Virus record (IMG/VR): IMGVR_UViG_3300030107_006310
Span: 863-24,406 of that record
Origin: a virus
Direction: 5' to 3' (one strand)
DNA: 23,544 bases
Shown one piece after another: positions 4,998-12,035 of this stretch (within the stretch, counting starts at the first letter, position 1; each line of letters begins with the position of its first letter). Under the pieces are notes generated by a model. The model saw nothing but the letters and a program-made list of their open reading frames with translations, was not told where the DNA came from and made no database searches. The position numbers were made by a program, and so were the translations under genes.

Positions 4998-7900
4998 ATG
5001 TCTGTTAGTAATACTAGATGGTTAACAGATAGCAAAACAAAAGCTACAAGTTCTACTTCTACTAGTACTAGTCTTTCTATATTTAAAAGTATTGCAGTAT
5101 CAGGTCAAACTACTGTTTCTGCTTTAAATGATTCCGATACATTAACATTAGTTGCAGGCACAGGAATAACATTAACTACTTCAGGTCAAGCTCTAACAAT
5201 TACAAGTTCAGCGACTACAGGAGATATTTCTTTTTCAGGTAGTAATATAACTTCATCAGGTGCTAGAGTATCTATTTTAGATCAAGTAACTATAACTCCT
5301 GCAGCAGATTCAACAACATCATTTTTAGTAGAAAAAGCAGATGGAACAGATATATTTGCAATTGATACTACAAATTCTAAATTAGTATTAGGAACAGGAA
5401 TTTTTGAATTACCAGATAGTAATATTGGAATTGGTAATAGTGTAGCATTTCATGCTAATGCAACTGAAAATATAGCAATAGGGAAACAAGCATTAGATGG
5501 AACTACTGGTACAGCACAAAGAAATGTTGCAATAGGTGTTTATGCATTAACTTCATTGCAAACAGGTGATAATAATGTAGCTTTAGGCTTTACAACAGGA
5601 CAATCTTTAACCACAGCAAGTGATAATATGTTAATTGGTAAAGGTGCAGGAAATAAGATAACTAATAGTGGTGCTAATACATTAATTGGTGCTAATGCAG
5701 GTTACCAAATAACAACTTCAAGTGGTGCAAAGAATACAGGCATTGGTTCTTATTCTCTTTATAAGGCAGGTGGCAATCCGAATGAAAATGTAGCTATTGG
5801 CTATTATTCAATAGGGAAAGGACACAGTACAGGCGATGATTATTCAGGAAACTCACCTTCTTATAATGTAGCTATTGGGAATTACACATTGGGTGGTGCA
5901 CCAACATTTTCCAATGATACACAACAAGATTCTTTATATGGCATTGCTATTGGACACGAAGCTATGACATTTTCTGAAAGTGGACAACATAATACAGCAG
6001 TTGGATATTTATCAGGAAAATACCTTACAACAGGCAGTTATAATATGTTTATTGGTGGTTCAACAGGTGGAAGTGGAAGTAGTACAGCATTAACAGGTGA
6101 TAATAACTATGCAATAGGGTATGGTGCAGGAAACAATATACAAGGTACTTGTTCAGGTACAATGTACATTGGAAGAAGTGCAGGTGCATCAACTACAACG
6201 AGTGGTATAGGAAATACAGGAATCGGATATTATGCTTTATCAGGTACAGTTAATAGTTTAAGAAATACAGCTATTGGATATGAAGCATTAAAAGTACACA
6301 ATACAGCAGGAGCAGATTATGGCAATAATGTTGGTATTGGGTATAAGTCATTAAATGTTTTAACAATAGGTAAAGATAATACAGCTTTGGGTGCTAATTC
6401 AGGAATAGCATTAACTGAAGGTAATGATAATATACTTATAGGCTCTGGAGGGTTAGGATTAACAACAGGTGATAAGAATTTAGTAATTGGTAATTATGCA
6501 GGCAATGCTATAACTACTGAAGAAAATGGGACTTTTATAGGTTATAAAGCAGGGCAACATACTACAGGTGCAAGTAGGGCATTATATATAGGATATTATG
6601 CAGGTTTATATTTACAAGGTGGAGATGACAATCTTTTACTTGGTGGGTTGGCTATGGGTTCAGGGAATACATCTGATAAAAGTCAAAATTCAGGTTATAA
6701 AAATATTGCTATTGGATACAAAACCATAGGTGGCAATATTGGTTCAGGGGATAATTTAACAGCATTTTATAATGTTGCTTTAGGTTATGAATCAATGAAA
6801 AATGCAACATCAGCACAATACAATATTTGTTTAGGTGCATTAGCAGGAACAGTTATGTCCACAGGCTCTTTCAATGTAGGCATAGGATATAATTCTATAC
6901 AAGCTATGACAACAGGCACAGGAAATTTAGCTATTGGTGCTAATGCATTAAGAACAGCAGTAGCTGACCGTTCAAATATCGCAATAGGTAAAGAATCATT
7001 ATATTATTTAAATAATAGCAGTAATTACGGATACAATGTTGCAATCGGAGAAAATGCAGGTAGAGAGGCGACCATATCGCAATATTCTTTTTTTCTTGGG
7101 AGTGATGCAGGTAGGTATGTAACAACTGCCAAAAATAATGTTGCAATAGGATACCAAACACTCGGTGCAGGTAAAAGTGCAAATAGATTGCGAGGTTATG
7201 GTGATGGTGGTGGAATGGCATCTTATTCTGGAGAAAGAAATATTGCGATTGGATATAGGGCATTATACGAATTAAGTAATTCAGTAGCATCTGATAATTC
7301 TTTAATAATTGGAACATCGGCATCATCATATAACAATACTGTAATCGGTGCTTATGCAGGAATAAGAATGATAACTGCAAAACAAAATACTTTAATCGGT
7401 GCAGAAACAGGTCAAAAAATGCTCGGCAATTTAAATACAGTAATCGGAACAGCAAGTTGTTATAATTCTCACTATGTATCAGGTGCAACTGTTATCGGTG
7501 GTGCTACTATGGGTAGCTATTCAGGTGAAGATTATGCTGTTGCAATAGGTGTTGGTGCATTTAAAAATTTAAGAAATGTTGGTAGAATTTCAACTGTAGA
7601 TGATACTACTCCAACACCATCGAGTGCTTGGCAAGCAAGTCAAACTCATACAAATATATCACCTACAAGTGATGATTCAACAAATGGAACAGAAACAACA
7701 TTTGATATAGTAACCGATGGTTCAGGTAATCCAACATTTACAGTTAATGCTAGAGGTTATAATTATCAATCAGATGATGAATTAACATTTACTGACCCAG
7801 GTAGTACAAGTAATACAGCAGTTTTAGTGGTTAATGCTTTAAAAACAGATAATGGGCAAATAGCAATCGGATATAATGCAGGTTATGATTTGCAACAAGG

Positions 7901-8954
7901 TACGAACAATGTATTAATAGGAAAAGAAGCAGGTTCTAATATAATTTCAGCAAGTGGAACAGTAGCTATTGGTGCTTGGGCAGGCTATTATCATGAATCA
8001 GGTGATAGAAATATATTTATTGGTAGAGGTGCAGGGCAAGGTGTTACAGGAAATAGATTAACAGGTGGTTCAAATATATGCATTGGAGATTATGCAGGTA
8101 GTAAATTGCAGGGAACAGCTACTCAAAACCATTTAATTGGAGATGGTGCAGGTGATAATATTACAACAGGTTGGCAAAACTTTGCTATTGGTCGCCATTC
8201 TTTAGATGCTGAAGTTGCAGGAAACAGGAGTGTTGCAATTGGGAATGCAGCATTATCAGATGCTACTCAAGCAACTAATACTCAAGTTGAAAATACAGCT
8301 ATTGGATATGGAGCAGGAGATGTAATAACATCAGGAATTGAGTGCACTTTTATTGGTGGGAGCTCTAATGGTGATGCAACATCAAGTGGTCAAGTTGCTA
8401 TAGGGCAAAGTGCTGTAACTCAAAATGCAAATGAAGTTAGAATTGGATATCAAGGAGCATTCCAACTCTATAGTGTTGAAGCTGAATGTGGTTTAGGAGG
8501 AACAGATGAAAATGATCCATCTCATTCAACTCCATTATTTAAGATACCACAATATGCTATCATTAAATCAGCAACTGCAGTAGTTACACAATTAAGTAGT
8601 GTAGCTCATCATAAATTAAAACTTGTATTGTCTACTGATTCTAGTGGTACAGATAATACAGTATTAAATAATATTCAAGAAATAATAGGAGCAGGTGCAG
8701 ACAATTCATGGTCAGGAAGTGCAAGTGATGGAACTGCAAAAGATATTGATGCAGGAAGTACTGCAGCAAATTTAAAAGTAGCTTATGCTACAACAGTTTT
8801 AGGGAATGATACTGGATTATCTTCAATAGATACAACATCAGCAGATCAATATGTTTATTTAGCTTTTGCAGATGCTTCATACACAGGTGGTGATGGTCAA
8901 CCAGGAACTAATCCTAAAGTAAGAGTTTGTATAGAATTTGTAGGTGAAGATTAA
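4998..8954 (+). CDS. Giant fibre protein with about 50 AIG-type beta-roll repeats
   Basis: A 1318-residue protein, the largest here. Residues 1-30 are the anchor shared with the preceding gene. Residues about 35-140 are a Ser/Thr-rich fibre region (TLTLVAGTGITLTTSGQ, FLVEKADGTDIFAID). Residues about 141-1152 hold about 50 units of the type NVAIGY(x)AL or NTAIG(x)xAG separated by TTG/SGD turns, like the left-handed parallel beta-roll heads (Hep/Hag) of trimeric adhesins. An unlike module interrupts them at residues about 866-954. Residues about 1155-1317 are a C-terminal beta-sandwich (KIPQYAIIKSATAVV, HKLKLVLSTDSSGTD) ending KVRVCIEFVGED. A trimeric host-contacting or head fibre is expected. 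There is no S74 autoprotease motif that I can see, unlike many long fibres. ATG lies one base after the previous stop without an evident Shine-Dalgarno. Confidence 0.75.
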   Translation: MSVSNTRWLTDSKTKATSSTSTSTSLSIFKSIAVSGQTTVSALNDSDTLTLVAGTGITLTTSGQALTITSSATTGDISFSGSNITSSGARVSILDQVTITPAADSTTSFLVEKADGTDIFAIDTTNSKLVLGTGIFELPDSNIGIGNSVAFHANATENIAIGKQALDGTTGTAQRNVAIGVYALTSLQTGDNNVALGFTTGQSLTTASDNMLIGKGAGNKITNSGANTLIGANAGYQITTSSGAKNTGIGSYSLYKAGGNPNENVAIGYYSIGKGHSTGDDYSGNSPSYNVAIGNYTLGGAPTFSNDTQQDSLYGIAIGHEAMTFSESGQHNTAVGYLSGKYLTTGSYNMFIGGSTGGSGSSTALTGDNNYAIGYGAGNNIQGTCSGTMYIGRSAGASTTTSGIGNTGIGYYALSGTVNSLRNTAIGYEALKVHNTAGADYGNNVGIGYKSLNVLTIGKDNTALGANSGIALTEGNDNILIGSGGLGLTTGDKNLVIGNYAGNAITTEENGTFIGYKAGQHTTGASRALYIGYYAGLYLQGGDDNLLLGGLAMGSGNTSDKSQNSGYKNIAIGYKTIGGNIGSGDNLTAFYNVALGYESMKNATSAQYNICLGALAGTVMSTGSFNVGIGYNSIQAMTTGTGNLAIGANALRTAVADRSNIAIGKESLYYLNNSSNYGYNVAIGENAGREATISQYSFFLGSDAGRYVTTAKNNVAIGYQTLGAGKSANRLRGYGDGGGMASYSGERNIAIGYRALYELSNSVASDNSLIIGTSASSYNNTVIGAYAGIRMITAKQNTLIGAETGQKMLGNLNTVIGTASCYNSHYVSGATVIGGATMGSYSGEDYAVAIGVGAFKNLRNVGRISTVDDTTPTPSSAWQASQTHTNISPTSDDSTNGTETTFDIVTDGSGNPTFTVNARGYNYQSDDELTFTDPGSTSNTAVLVVNALKTDNGQIAIGYNAGYDLQQGTNNVLIGKEAGSNIISASGTVAIGAWAGYYHESGDRNIFIGRGAGQGVTGNRLTGGSNICIGDYAGSKLQGTATQNHLIGDGAGDNITTGWQNFAIGRHSLDAEVAGNRSVAIGNAALSDATQATNTQVENTAIGYGAGDVITSGIECTFIGGSSNGDATSSGQVAIGQSAVTQNANEVRIGYQGAFQLYSVEAECGLGGTDENDPSHSTPLFKIPQYAIIKSATAVVTQLSSVAHHKLKLVLSTDSSGTDNTVLNNIQEIIGAGADNSWSGSASDGTAKDIDAGSTAANLKVAYATTVLGNDTGLSSIDTTSADQYVYLAFADASYTGGDGQPGTNPKVRVCIEFVGED
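5418..8454 (+). repeat. Coding beta-roll repeat array of the giant fibre
   Basis: I count 51 occurrences of a hydrophobic-x-(I/L/V)-G core (AIG, LIG, GIG, ALG) between IGIGNS near the start and VRIGYQ near the end, spaced roughly 14-30 residues apart. The DNA is degenerate (att/ata/atc plus ggt/gga/ggc), so the repeat is conserved at protein rather than nucleotide level. It ends directly before the C-terminal globular domain. Confidence 0.8.
7594..7859 (+). other. Non-repeat module interrupting the fibre beta-roll
   Basis: This segment (residues about 866-954) has no AIG repeats. It is Thr/Ser/Asp-rich, with ETTFDIVTDGSGNPTFTV, GYNYQSDDELTF and NTAVLVVN strands, resembling the GSGYAVGDTLTI-type beta modules common in phage fibres. 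Repeats stop at VAIGVG (about 7539) and resume at IAIGYN (7860), so it looks like a domain inserted into the stalk. Confidence 0.55.
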
Positions 8955-9430: not shown

Positions 9431-9838
9431 ATGAAAAAATTAATAGAAGCTGTTAAGTTATCAGAAGGATATAAACCTACTGTATATAAAGATACTTTAG
9501 ATATTGATACAATTGGATACGGATTTGCTATTAAAGACCTTTATTTAGATGAAGAAATATGTGAAATGATCTTAAAGCAAAAATTAGAGAAATTAATTAA
9601 AGAGGCTGATAAAAAGTTTGAGTTTCTTAAATACACACCACAAGAAGGTAAAGAAGTAATATATGAAATGTGTTATCAACTTGGTATTAATGGTGTTTCA
9701 AAATTCAAAAAAGCTTTAGCTTATATGCAAGATAAAAAATATGACAAGGCTTCAGTCGAGATGCTCGATTCTTTATGGGCAAAGCAGACTCCAAATCGTG
9801 CATTGAAGTTAAGTAATATAATTAAAAGCTTAGCATGA
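9431..9838 (+). CDS. T4-type lysozyme endolysin (glycoside hydrolase family 24)
   Basis: A 135-residue muramidase expected to cleave peptidoglycan glycan strands at lysis. The catalytic segment SEGYKPTVYKDTLDIDTIGY carries Glu12, Asp21 and Thr27, matching the T4 lysozyme Glu11/Asp20/Thr26 triad with identical spacing. The T4 GIGH motif reads GYGF here (His replaced by Phe). The C-terminal helical lobe includes MCYQLGINGVSKFKKAL and SLWAKQTPNRALKL, the latter equivalent to the conserved W...Q.PNRA of the family. Length is slightly shorter than T4 lysozyme (164 residues). No signal peptide is visible, so release should need a holin, and a one-helix candidate overlaps its stop codon (ATGA at 9835). 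AAGGAAG precedes the ATG by about 9 bases. Confidence 0.92.
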   Translation: MKKLIEAVKLSEGYKPTVYKDTLDIDTIGYGFAIKDLYLDEEICEMILKQKLEKLIKEADKKFEFLKYTPQEGKEVIYEMCYQLGINGVSKFKKALAYMQDKKYDKASVEMLDSLWAKQTPNRALKLSNIIKSLA

Positions 9839-9991: not shown

Positions 9992-10771
9992 ATGGATAGA
10001 GGTGTTGTACAAAGAGCTATTGTAACACCTGATAAGCATTTTCCAATAGCTGATAAAAAAGCTGTAAATGTGGTTTGTAAAGCAATAGAAATGGTAAAAC
10101 CTGATACTTATATTGATTTAGGTGATACAGGAGAATGGGAAATGTTTAGTAGTCATTATTGGAAGAATAAAGAAAGACCTCCATTAGAGGTTTTAATACC
10201 AATGTTGAATAAAGAAGTAAAACAAGTCAATAAAGGTATGGATTTATTTGACAAAGCTTTAGATAAGATTGATTGTAAAAATAGACATTTTATACAAGGT
10301 AATCATGAATTATGGTTAGATAATTTTGTAAATAAACATCCTTATTTACCTGAGTTTATGACAGAAAAAGCATTAAGATTGAAAGAAAGAGGTTATAAAT
10401 ATTGGAAATATATTTCTACTAAGAAATTAAAAATAGGCAAATTAAACTTTACACATGGTGATTATGTTCCAATACATCATGCTAAAAAGCATTTAGCCTC
10501 ATATAAAGAAAATATTATATATGGACATACACATGATTTACAAAGATTTACAGAGACTGGATTAGGAGGAACACAAAGTGCTTGGAGTTTAGGTTGTTTA
10601 AAAGATATGAGTTCTGAAAAGAATACATGGCTTAAAGGTAACTTACATAATTGGAATCATGCATTTGCTATAGTTGATTGGTTTAAAAATGGAGACTTTA
10701 AAGTAGAAGTAGTAGAAATAATAAAAGGTAGGACAAGCTTATGGGGGGAAGTTATAGATGGAACTAAGTAA
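9992..10771 (+). CDS. Calcineurin-like metallophosphoesterase
   Basis: A 259-residue protein with all the metal-site motifs of the calcineurin-like phosphoesterase superfamily in order: DKH (Asp14, His16), LGD (Asp45), GNHE (Asn104, His105), HGD (His155, Asp157) and GHTH (His179, His181). These bind a two-metal centre that hydrolyses phosphomono- or diesters. The substrate cannot be read from sequence; the superfamily covers nucleases, cyclic nucleotide and protein phosphatases. It has no signal peptide or membrane segment, so it is likely cytoplasmic. It lies between the holin candidate and a two-helix membrane protein, overlapping the latter by 14 bases, so it is expressed with late genes. 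A role in host nucleotide or nucleic acid turnover, or in counter-defence against phosphate-ester signals, is only conjecture. Confidence 0.85.
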   Translation: MDRGVVQRAIVTPDKHFPIADKKAVNVVCKAIEMVKPDTYIDLGDTGEWEMFSSHYWKNKERPPLEVLIPMLNKEVKQVNKGMDLFDKALDKIDCKNRHFIQGNHELWLDNFVNKHPYLPEFMTEKALRLKERGYKYWKYISTKKLKIGKLNFTHGDYVPIHHAKKHLASYKENIIYGHTHDLQRFTETGLGGTQSAWSLGCLKDMSSEKNTWLKGNLHNWNHAFAIVDWFKNGDFKVEVVEIIKGRTSLWGEVIDGTK

Positions 10772-11210: not shown

Positions 11211-12035
11211 ATGAAAAACATGTATGATTATAGTAAAGTAGTAAAAGCAATGAGAGATTTCTTTCAAGAAGAAAAAGGGTTTATAGAAGTACCTGCACAA
11301 AGTAGGCAATCTATATTAGCAGCTTGTGAAGACCCTAAAACAATATCACAATATATATTTAGTGGTGTTAATTATCCATTACCTCAAACAGGTCAAATGT
11401 GGCTTGAAAGAGATTTGCTTGAAAATCCTAAAGTTAATGGTGTATTTTGCATTACTACTAGCTATAGAAATGAACCTAATCCTGTAGAGGGAAGACACGA
11501 TAAAATATTTCCAATGTTTGAGTTTGAATCACATGGTAATATTAATGATATGATTAAATTAGAAGAAGAGTTATTAATGCATTTAGGATTTGGTTCTATG
11601 CATGAAAAGATAATGTATGATGAAGCTTGTAAAAAATATAATGTAAATGAATTAGATTATGATGAAGAAGAAGCTTTATGCAAAGATTTTACACCTTGTA
11701 CCTTCTTAACTCATTTCCCATTAAGGACACATCCTTTTTGGAATATGAAGCATGCTGGTACAGGTATATATAATAAAGTAGATGTTATTATGCATGGTAT
11801 GGAAACTATAGGCTCTGCTGAAAGAGCTGTAGATGTAAAAGAAATGAGAGAACAATTTCACAATATATCAGATGGTGAATATGCTCAATTACTTTATAAT
11901 CACTTTGGTAAAAAAAGAGTAGAAGATGAATTAGAAGAGTATTTAGCTTTAGATATGTTTGAAAGGTTTGGTGGTGGAATAGGAGTTACTAGAATGGTAT
12001 CTGCTATGAAAGCTGCTGAAATATTGGAGGAATAA
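11211..12035 (+). CDS. Stand-alone class II Asx-tRNA-synthetase-like catalytic core; possible asparagine synthetase A-like enzyme
   Basis: A 274-residue protein with the catalytic motifs of class II AspRS/AsnRS enzymes. Motif 1-like helix and strand: MRDFFQEEKGFIEVP (14-28). Motif 2: SYRNE (Arg86, Glu88), a loop with RH (95-96), then MFEFE (102-106), as in the ATP-binding FRxE loop. A GMETIGSAER block (196-205) resembles the GGxE...G..R region of AspRS/AsnRS. Motif 3: FGGGIGVTRM with Arg261. The N-terminal OB-fold anticodon domain (about 100 residues in AspRS/AsnRS) is absent, since motif 1 begins at residue 14. Known relatives with this layout include archaeal asparagine synthetase-related enzymes and poorly characterised tRNA-ligase-related proteins. 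It could activate Asp to make Asn or modify another acceptor. An alternative start is ATG 11220. Confidence 0.78.
   Translation: MKNMYDYSKVVKAMRDFFQEEKGFIEVPAQSRQSILAACEDPKTISQYIFSGVNYPLPQTGQMWLERDLLENPKVNGVFCITTSYRNEPNPVEGRHDKIFPMFEFESHGNINDMIKLEEELLMHLGFGSMHEKIMYDEACKKYNVNELDYDEEEALCKDFTPCTFLTHFPLRTHPFWNMKHAGTGIYNKVDVIMHGMETIGSAERAVDVKEMREQFHNISDGEYAQLLYNHFGKKRVEDELEEYLALDMFERFGGGIGVTRMVSAMKAAEILEE

Follow-up and report, generated by a model that had tools for sequence, protein, structure and literature searches.

The gene at positions 11,211 to 12,035 of a 23,544-nucleotide stretch of viral DNA (IMG/VR record IMGVR_UViG_3300030107_006310, positions 863 to 24,406; hereafter the window) encodes a member of a family of small synthetase-like enzymes that is associated with a dedicated tRNA in phages and with pyrimidine (pyr) genes in cells. 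This genetic association of enzyme, tRNA, and pyr genes is well supported by the sequence comparisons described below. Of the readings that account for both the pairing with the tRNA and the linkage to pyr genes, the simplest has the enzyme providing PyrD with its substrate. We propose, with a confidence just short of evenly balanced, that it is an adenylating ligase built on the core of asparaginyl-tRNA synthetase (AsnRS), which opens an alternative route to UMP and for which the tRNA serves as carrier in phages. The chemistry of this route is what we infer from these associations.

The open reading frame runs from an ATG to a TAA stop and is directly preceded by an in-frame TAA, so that no anticodon-binding domain can be encoded in frame upstream of it. 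The relevant features are as follows:

11,211–12,035, plus strand: synthetase-like core gene of family phrog_29758, with the PF00152 fold and without the OB domain; 274 amino acids
11,208–11,210, plus strand: in-frame stop codon (TAA) abutting the ATG, which excludes an in-frame N-terminal extension
11,385–11,408, plus strand: QTGQMWLE, residues 59–66; E66 is aligned to the amino-acid-pocket Glu of AsnRS
11,460–11,528, plus strand: motif 2 and the block that follows it, residues 84–106 (S84 Y85 R86 x E88 ... H96 ... E104 x E106); R86, E88, H96, E104, and E106 are invariant
11,796–11,825, plus strand: GMETIGSAER, residues 196–205; R205 is aligned to the side-chain-binding Arg of AsnRS GGSMR
11,970–11,993, plus strand: motif 3, GGGIGVTR, residues 254–261, with the ATP-binding Arg261, from the sequence and the family alignment

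The protein matches the Pfam family tRNA-synt_2 (PF00152) over residues 3–269 (E 1.3e-19; 70.8 bits for a gathering score of 25), and among the PHROG profiles it has a strong match to phrog_29758 (E 3.6e-94, residues 6–267). Judged by this value and by the hundreds of homologues in IMG/VR, the family relationship is beyond chance. Among GenBank phages, members are found in the cyanophages P-SSM2, P-SSM5, and P-SSM7 and in a few huge uncultured phages. The three cyanophage proteins (phrog_29758, T4-GC 194; 52–55% identity) are annotated only as "tRNA ligase", and the records seen mention neither a pairing with the tRNA-Asn that lies directly downstream nor a link to pyr genes. All equivalog models of NCBIfam stay below their cut-offs for the window protein: lysS (36/468 bits), EpmA (NF006828, 34/264 bits), asparagine synthetase A (NF005055, 23.2/389 bits), and asnS, the model of AsnRS (22/342.6 bits).

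An AlphaFold2 model built with 45 family members (predicted local score, pLDDT, 91.7; predicted template-modelling score, pTM, 0.90) consists of catalytic core throughout, with no N-terminal OB-fold anticodon-binding domain. Compared with the PDB, it is closest to AsnRS (2xti, Z 27.8, root-mean-square deviation 2.2 over 247 residues; human AsnRS, 27.6; P. horikoshii AsnRS, 26.6), followed by aspartyl-tRNA synthetase (AspRS; 1b8a, Z 26.3) and archaeal asparagine synthetase A (3rex, Z 24.7), with about 245 residues superposed. It thus shares with the class IIb AsnRS core (2xti, 1x54, 8h53) the fold (Z 26–28), motifs 2 and 3, and, by alignment, the Glu and Arg of the pocket; it differs in its size, in the missing OB domain, in its sequence (about 22% identity), and in that the partner RNA of its relatives is not a normal tRNA-Asn. 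The amino-acid pocket looks Asn-type, because E66 matches the Glu of AsnRS (LYLE) at a position where AspRS has a Lys.

We aligned 106 diverse members from phages and cells. E66, R86, E88, H96, E104, E106, N178, E198, and R205 are invariant among them, and R261 is kept in all 105 relatives that have a residue there. When we searched this alignment for residues separating tRNA-linked from pyr-linked members, an I/V difference at position 45 was all that emerged. As far as the alignment tells, a single invariant active site is common to the tRNA-linked phage members and the pyr-linked cellular members.

These results bear out much of an earlier, sequence-only reading of the window, which had described a free-standing Asp/Asn-type core with an intact active site and no OB domain and had considered ATP-dependent activation plausible: the Pfam match, the superposition on AsnRS and AspRS, the upstream stop, and the conserved class IIb motifs all agree with it, and the alignment also supports an Asn-type pocket. 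That reading also likened the protein to archaeal asparagine synthetases. This likeness holds for the fold, since both are free-standing class IIb cores of similar size (3p8t, 3reu, 3rex), but their Z score is below those of AsnRS, identity is 19%, the family model falls far under its cut-off, and the relatives of the window protein are accompanied by a tRNA of their own as well as by pyr genes. We therefore consider an asparagine synthetase A-like enzyme very unlikely, and the suggestion that it makes asparagine for Asn-rich virion proteins found no support; what the neighbouring genes and the co-occurrence indicate is pyrimidine synthesis. An EpmA-type synthetase paralogue that modifies a protein or small molecule would also be a stand-alone core, and the EpmA profile gives a weak match; yet the Arg205 is of the Asp/Asn type, not part of a lysine pocket, the profile score is far from its cut-off, and relatives have a linked tRNA, which makes this extremely improbable.

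In most phage lineages tested, a dedicated tRNA lies downstream of the synthetase gene, at a median distance of 26 bp. Its anticodon is GUU, rarely GUC (L053 and L475, where the enzyme has the same pocket), position 73 is always G, and a long variable arm is usual. In P-SSM5 and P-SSM7, the tRNA-Asn starts at most 10 bp after the synthetase gene, and in P-SSM2 ARAGORN locates it in the corresponding position; these cyanophage tRNAs have 85–88 nucleotides. The annotated tRNA-Asn of P-SSM2 (NC_006883.2, L002) is at 164094–164179, within a coding sequence, whereas ARAGORN puts it at about 162082–162169, directly after the "tRNA ligase" gene, so that a shift in the annotation is likely. Scans of further loci turned up RNAs of this type in separate, deep-branching clades. 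In the cyanophage-type set, the scan detected the tRNA at 59 of 68 loci, and at the other nine, reading by eye showed this tRNA to be present with the loop CCGTTTA. Covariation supports all five helices, including the variable arm: the 24 pairs are standard in every row and 21 of them changed on both sides (in a control with slid alignments, 38–47% of the cells were paired).

We also made the reverse test, searching IMG/VR by the letters of the tRNA only (D-loop and anticodon loop). Among the 118 loci obtained, 97 fold as the partner tRNA, all with G73. The synthetase gene is upstream on the same strand for 90 of these 97 (median distance 26 bp, 84 within 120 bp), and for the remaining seven, the upstream sequence available is no longer than 366 bp. 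The linkage between enzyme and tRNA in these relatives exceeds chance. The sequence-only reading had favoured other functions over that of a working tRNA synthetase, a preference that the dedicated tRNA of most phage lineages tested, including two close relatives of the window phage (L011 and L219), speaks against.

The partner tRNA nevertheless does not look like a decoder. The 55 distinct tRNAs from protein-derived loci have the anticodon loops CTGTTTA (27), TTGTTTC (16), CTGTTTC (8), TTGTTGG (2), CTGTCTC (1), and TTGTTTG (1), hence U37 in 53 and G73 in all 55, and C33 was seen in others (L041 and the nine cyanophage-type loci read by eye). To our knowledge, U33 and a purine at position 37 are near universal in decoding tRNAs, and U37 or C33 nearly unheard of. 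The dominance of U37 and the recurrence of C33 are what make the partner tRNA look unfit for decoding, to judge from its loop. This bears on the possibility that phages encode a minimal AsnRS with an orthogonal tRNA-Asn for translation, e.g., to keep up the supply of Asn-tRNA in a host whose own tRNA-Asn has been cleaved, is limiting, or is modified differently. Such a pair would fit the adjoining GUU tRNA with G73, the AsnRS fold and Asn-type pocket, and the retention of GUU in most lineages by an enzyme without an OB domain to read it. But it would sit poorly with the loops and with the GUC tRNAs of L053 and L475, and it would leave unaccounted for the pyr operons, the absence of PyrB, and the missing tRNA link of the cellular copies. 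We consider it rather unlikely. The pair resembles PylRS–tRNAPyl in that a synthetase is encoded beside its own structurally unusual tRNA; it differs in that PylRS belongs to another subclass and in that the phrog_29758 pair implies no codon reassignment.

A scan of cellular contigs returned 131 stretches encoding relatives, from which 80 loci (51–65% identity) were kept. The carriers include gammaproteobacterial metagenome-assembled genomes (MAGs), Chlamydiae, Dependentiae, Myxococcota, Patescibacteria, DPANN, Aureispira, Pasteurella atlantica, and others. The partner tRNA adjoins only one of the 80 (L440), which groups with phage sequences in the tree. The commonest conserved neighbours of the cellular copies are pyrE/pyrF and pyrD. 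Pyr genes are found beside 27 of the 79 clearly cellular loci, often directly abutting: in L425 the enzyme gene ends at 6822 and pyrF starts at 6824, in L451 the corresponding positions are 1240 and 1251, and in L410 the order is enzyme, pyrD, pyrE, pyrF. The cellular pyr clusters that we read contain no pyrB, pyrC, or carAB.

The genomes of the carriers show the same pattern. PyrB is over the cut-off in 1 of 44, against 14 of 14 controls, while orotidine monophosphate decarboxylase (PyrF) is over it in 35 of 44. CarB passes in 2 and PyrC in 1 of 33 carriers, a PyrC cut-off that 11 of the 14 controls reach. In the Saprospiraceae, a free-living family, PyrB is matched in 183 of the 199 genomes (in 171 over the cut-off), and all four carriers of the enzyme are among the 16 that have none; by our own arithmetic, this overlap would arise by chance with a probability of about 3e-5, or 4e-4 when two near-identical genomes are counted as one. 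Genes of the PyrD/E/F type thus accompany the family as in the classical pathway to UMP (CarAB, PyrB, PyrC, PyrD, PyrE, PyrF), whereas CarAB, PyrB, and PyrC are absent in most carriers and a synthetase-like gene stands in their place. Both associations meet in one cell, a Chitinophagales MAG (G055) that encodes the enzyme within a pyr cluster (L432) and, unlinked to it, an odd tRNA of the same kind as in phages, 116 nucleotides long, with loop TTGTCTC and G73-CCA, that adjoins housekeeping-looking genes; we liken its loop to that of phage locus L053 (CTGTCTC). A search for such a tRNA by DNA pattern found it in this Chitinophagales genome only, the two other pattern matches not being tRNAs. 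Separately, the copies of Patescibacteria L423, L433, L434, L439, L445, L446, L449, L461, L462, and L463 adjoin a gene resembling tRNA-dihydrouridine synthase (Dus), and most are also near dnaX. Dihydroorotate dehydrogenase (DHODH) has the same fold as Dus, and this neighbour may therefore be relevant to the function.

Pyr genes also accompany the enzyme in some phages. In those of the L041 type, pyrF (TIGR01740, over the cut-off) and a PyrE-like gene are next to the genes for enzyme and tRNA, on the opposite strand. L318 has pyrE (TIGR00336, over the cut-off) about 0.3 kb upstream. A DHODH-like gene is directly upstream of the enzyme in L167 and on the same contig in L179, and such genes are over the cut-off in 6 of the 44 phage records searched. 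Among the cultured cyanophages of the phage collection, pyrE was found only in P-SSM2, P-SSM5, and P-SSM7, exactly those with the enzyme, while the related head protein is encoded in more than 440 Synechococcus phage or cyanophage records. Since P-SSM2 and P-SSM5 are one species, this coincidence counts as two lineages.

In the route that we propose, the enzyme would use ATP to activate Asn (or Asp) and yield a product that eventually becomes L-dihydroorotate, bypassing CarAB, PyrB, and PyrC; dihydroorotate would then be converted to UMP by PyrD, PyrE, and PyrF of the phage or the host. The dedicated tRNA of phages would carry the amino acid without decoding, with G73 as the recognition base and an anticodon left unread because the OB domain is gone. 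The most economical chemistry, on which we can only speculate, would join Asn, CO2 (as N-carboxy-Asn), and ATP, the side-chain amide closing the ring on the free or tRNA-bound amino acid. One version is a tRNA-dependent pyrimidine pathway in which Asn or Asp is loaded on a dedicated non-decoding (or host) tRNA and the amino acid so activated is turned into dihydroorotate with no need for carbamoyl phosphate, aspartate carbamoyltransferase, or dihydroorotase; phages would carry this pathway to increase their supply of UMP and TMP outside host feedback control. We hold it possible, if somewhat unlikely. Alternatively, a tRNA-independent dihydroorotate synthase could use Asn, bicarbonate, and ATP, or Asp, urea, and ATP, with the phage tRNA only regulating or protecting the enzyme. 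The cellular pyr operons, mostly with no odd tRNA detected, and the joint loss of carB, pyrB, and pyrC would suit it, but the near-obligate tRNA of several phage lineages and the invariance of G73 imply an acceptor role, and we think it decidedly unlikely.

Several observations weigh against the proposed route. Bacteroidota carriers keep a PyrC-like gene, which is below the cut-off, and carrier G047 has both PyrB and PyrC. Many of the carriers without PyrB are parasites, members of the candidate phyla radiation, or predators, which might import precursors, and many carrier genomes are MAGs with unreported completeness figures. In six other cellular genomes with a pyr-linked enzyme, the best matches to the tRNA model turned out to be ordinary tRNAs, for Leu, Ser, Tyr, Phe, or Asn, so that a dedicated tRNA may not be general to the family. 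Among phages, pyrD and pyrF were not found in most of the records searched, and the large clade L016–L086 has no linked partner tRNA that we could find and mostly no pyr genes nearby. The tRNA was found neither in the relatives L007–L010 of the window phage nor in a 68-kb relative (G002).

Phages contain other tRNA-like elements. One of 142 nucleotides (L091:162-303, in the phage of L036), with G73 and an indistinct anticodon arm, is a candidate partner RNA for the clade that otherwise has no such tRNA. Others are widespread (L092, L094, L096, L098, L514 onward), often several per contig, with constant acceptor ends (AGTCAGG...CCTGACT), a Leu-like D arm, a T arm of the form ACAGG-TTCGAAT-CCTGT, and variable interiors without a consistent anticodon loop; they are unlinked to the synthetase gene. 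We ruled them out as partners in the tRNA-less clade: the loci found by their pattern have no ligase gene (the sole match among those listed is the window itself) and mostly A73. One enzyme-bearing phage contig (L380, G033:25000-40000) encodes a nearly complete set of tRNAs, with 23 calls, one of them with a four-base anticodon (gaaa).

In the 24,406-bp fragment of the window phage, the partner tRNA was detected neither by ARAGORN nor by Rfam at lax thresholds, our own covariance model, or a relaxed descriptor scan. It is present 1,053 bp downstream of the synthetase gene in L011 (75% identical) and 603 bp downstream in L219 (71% identical). These are the two nearest outgroups in the tree, where L011 branches beside the window clade with full support, and the window phage thus probably descends from tRNA-bearing ancestors. 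Among the available fragments, DHO_dh had no match in G000 or G002 and OMPdecase none in G002. On the sequence at hand, the window phage is a member of the enzyme family; any tRNA or pyr partners that it may have are not in its 24-kb fragment. The sister phage with L011 encodes a tmRNA (L011 7123-7456) and, on the same contig (G004), a tRNA called SeC with anticodon TCA, possibly reading UGA (L106 78-173).

Upstream of the synthetase gene, the window contains the following:

9,431–9,838, plus strand: lysozyme/endolysin-like gene (phrog_7, E 3.1e-13)
9,992–10,771, plus strand: metallophosphoesterase gene (phrog_221, E 6.3e-26), syntenic in L007
10,758–11,210, plus strand: small gene with a hydrophobic segment, whose stop abuts the synthetase start; its L007 counterpart is syntenic and 89% identical

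A 1,318-amino-acid protein with many N/V-AIG-type repeats (4,998–8,954), probably a fibre or adhesin, may be among the genes that the sequence-only reading meant by Asn-rich virion proteins. The endolysin and the large structural-looking neighbours fit the phage late region that it assumed, if only weakly.

Among the open-access papers searched, we found none that deals with a phage AsnRS-like enzyme and its tRNA, with tRNA-dependent dihydroorotate, or with cyanophage pyrE together with the "tRNA ligase". The fold is known, and the combination of a synthetase core, a putative non-decoding tRNA, and a PyrB-less pyrimidine module fits no system that we could name. The associations point to an undescribed start of pyrimidine synthesis, which, as far as is known, begins everywhere with carbamoyl phosphate, aspartate carbamoyltransferase, and dihydroorotase. 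The enzyme and its tRNA are a natural candidate orthogonal pair for engineering. If the proposed route is true, it would give a function to a phage gene labelled so far only "tRNA ligase", and its coupling to a non-decoding tRNA would give tRNA a further role, in metabolism. A synthetase-derived stand-in for all three of the classical first steps, common to phages, symbionts, and predatory bacteria, would mean that this central pathway can be entered in a new way.
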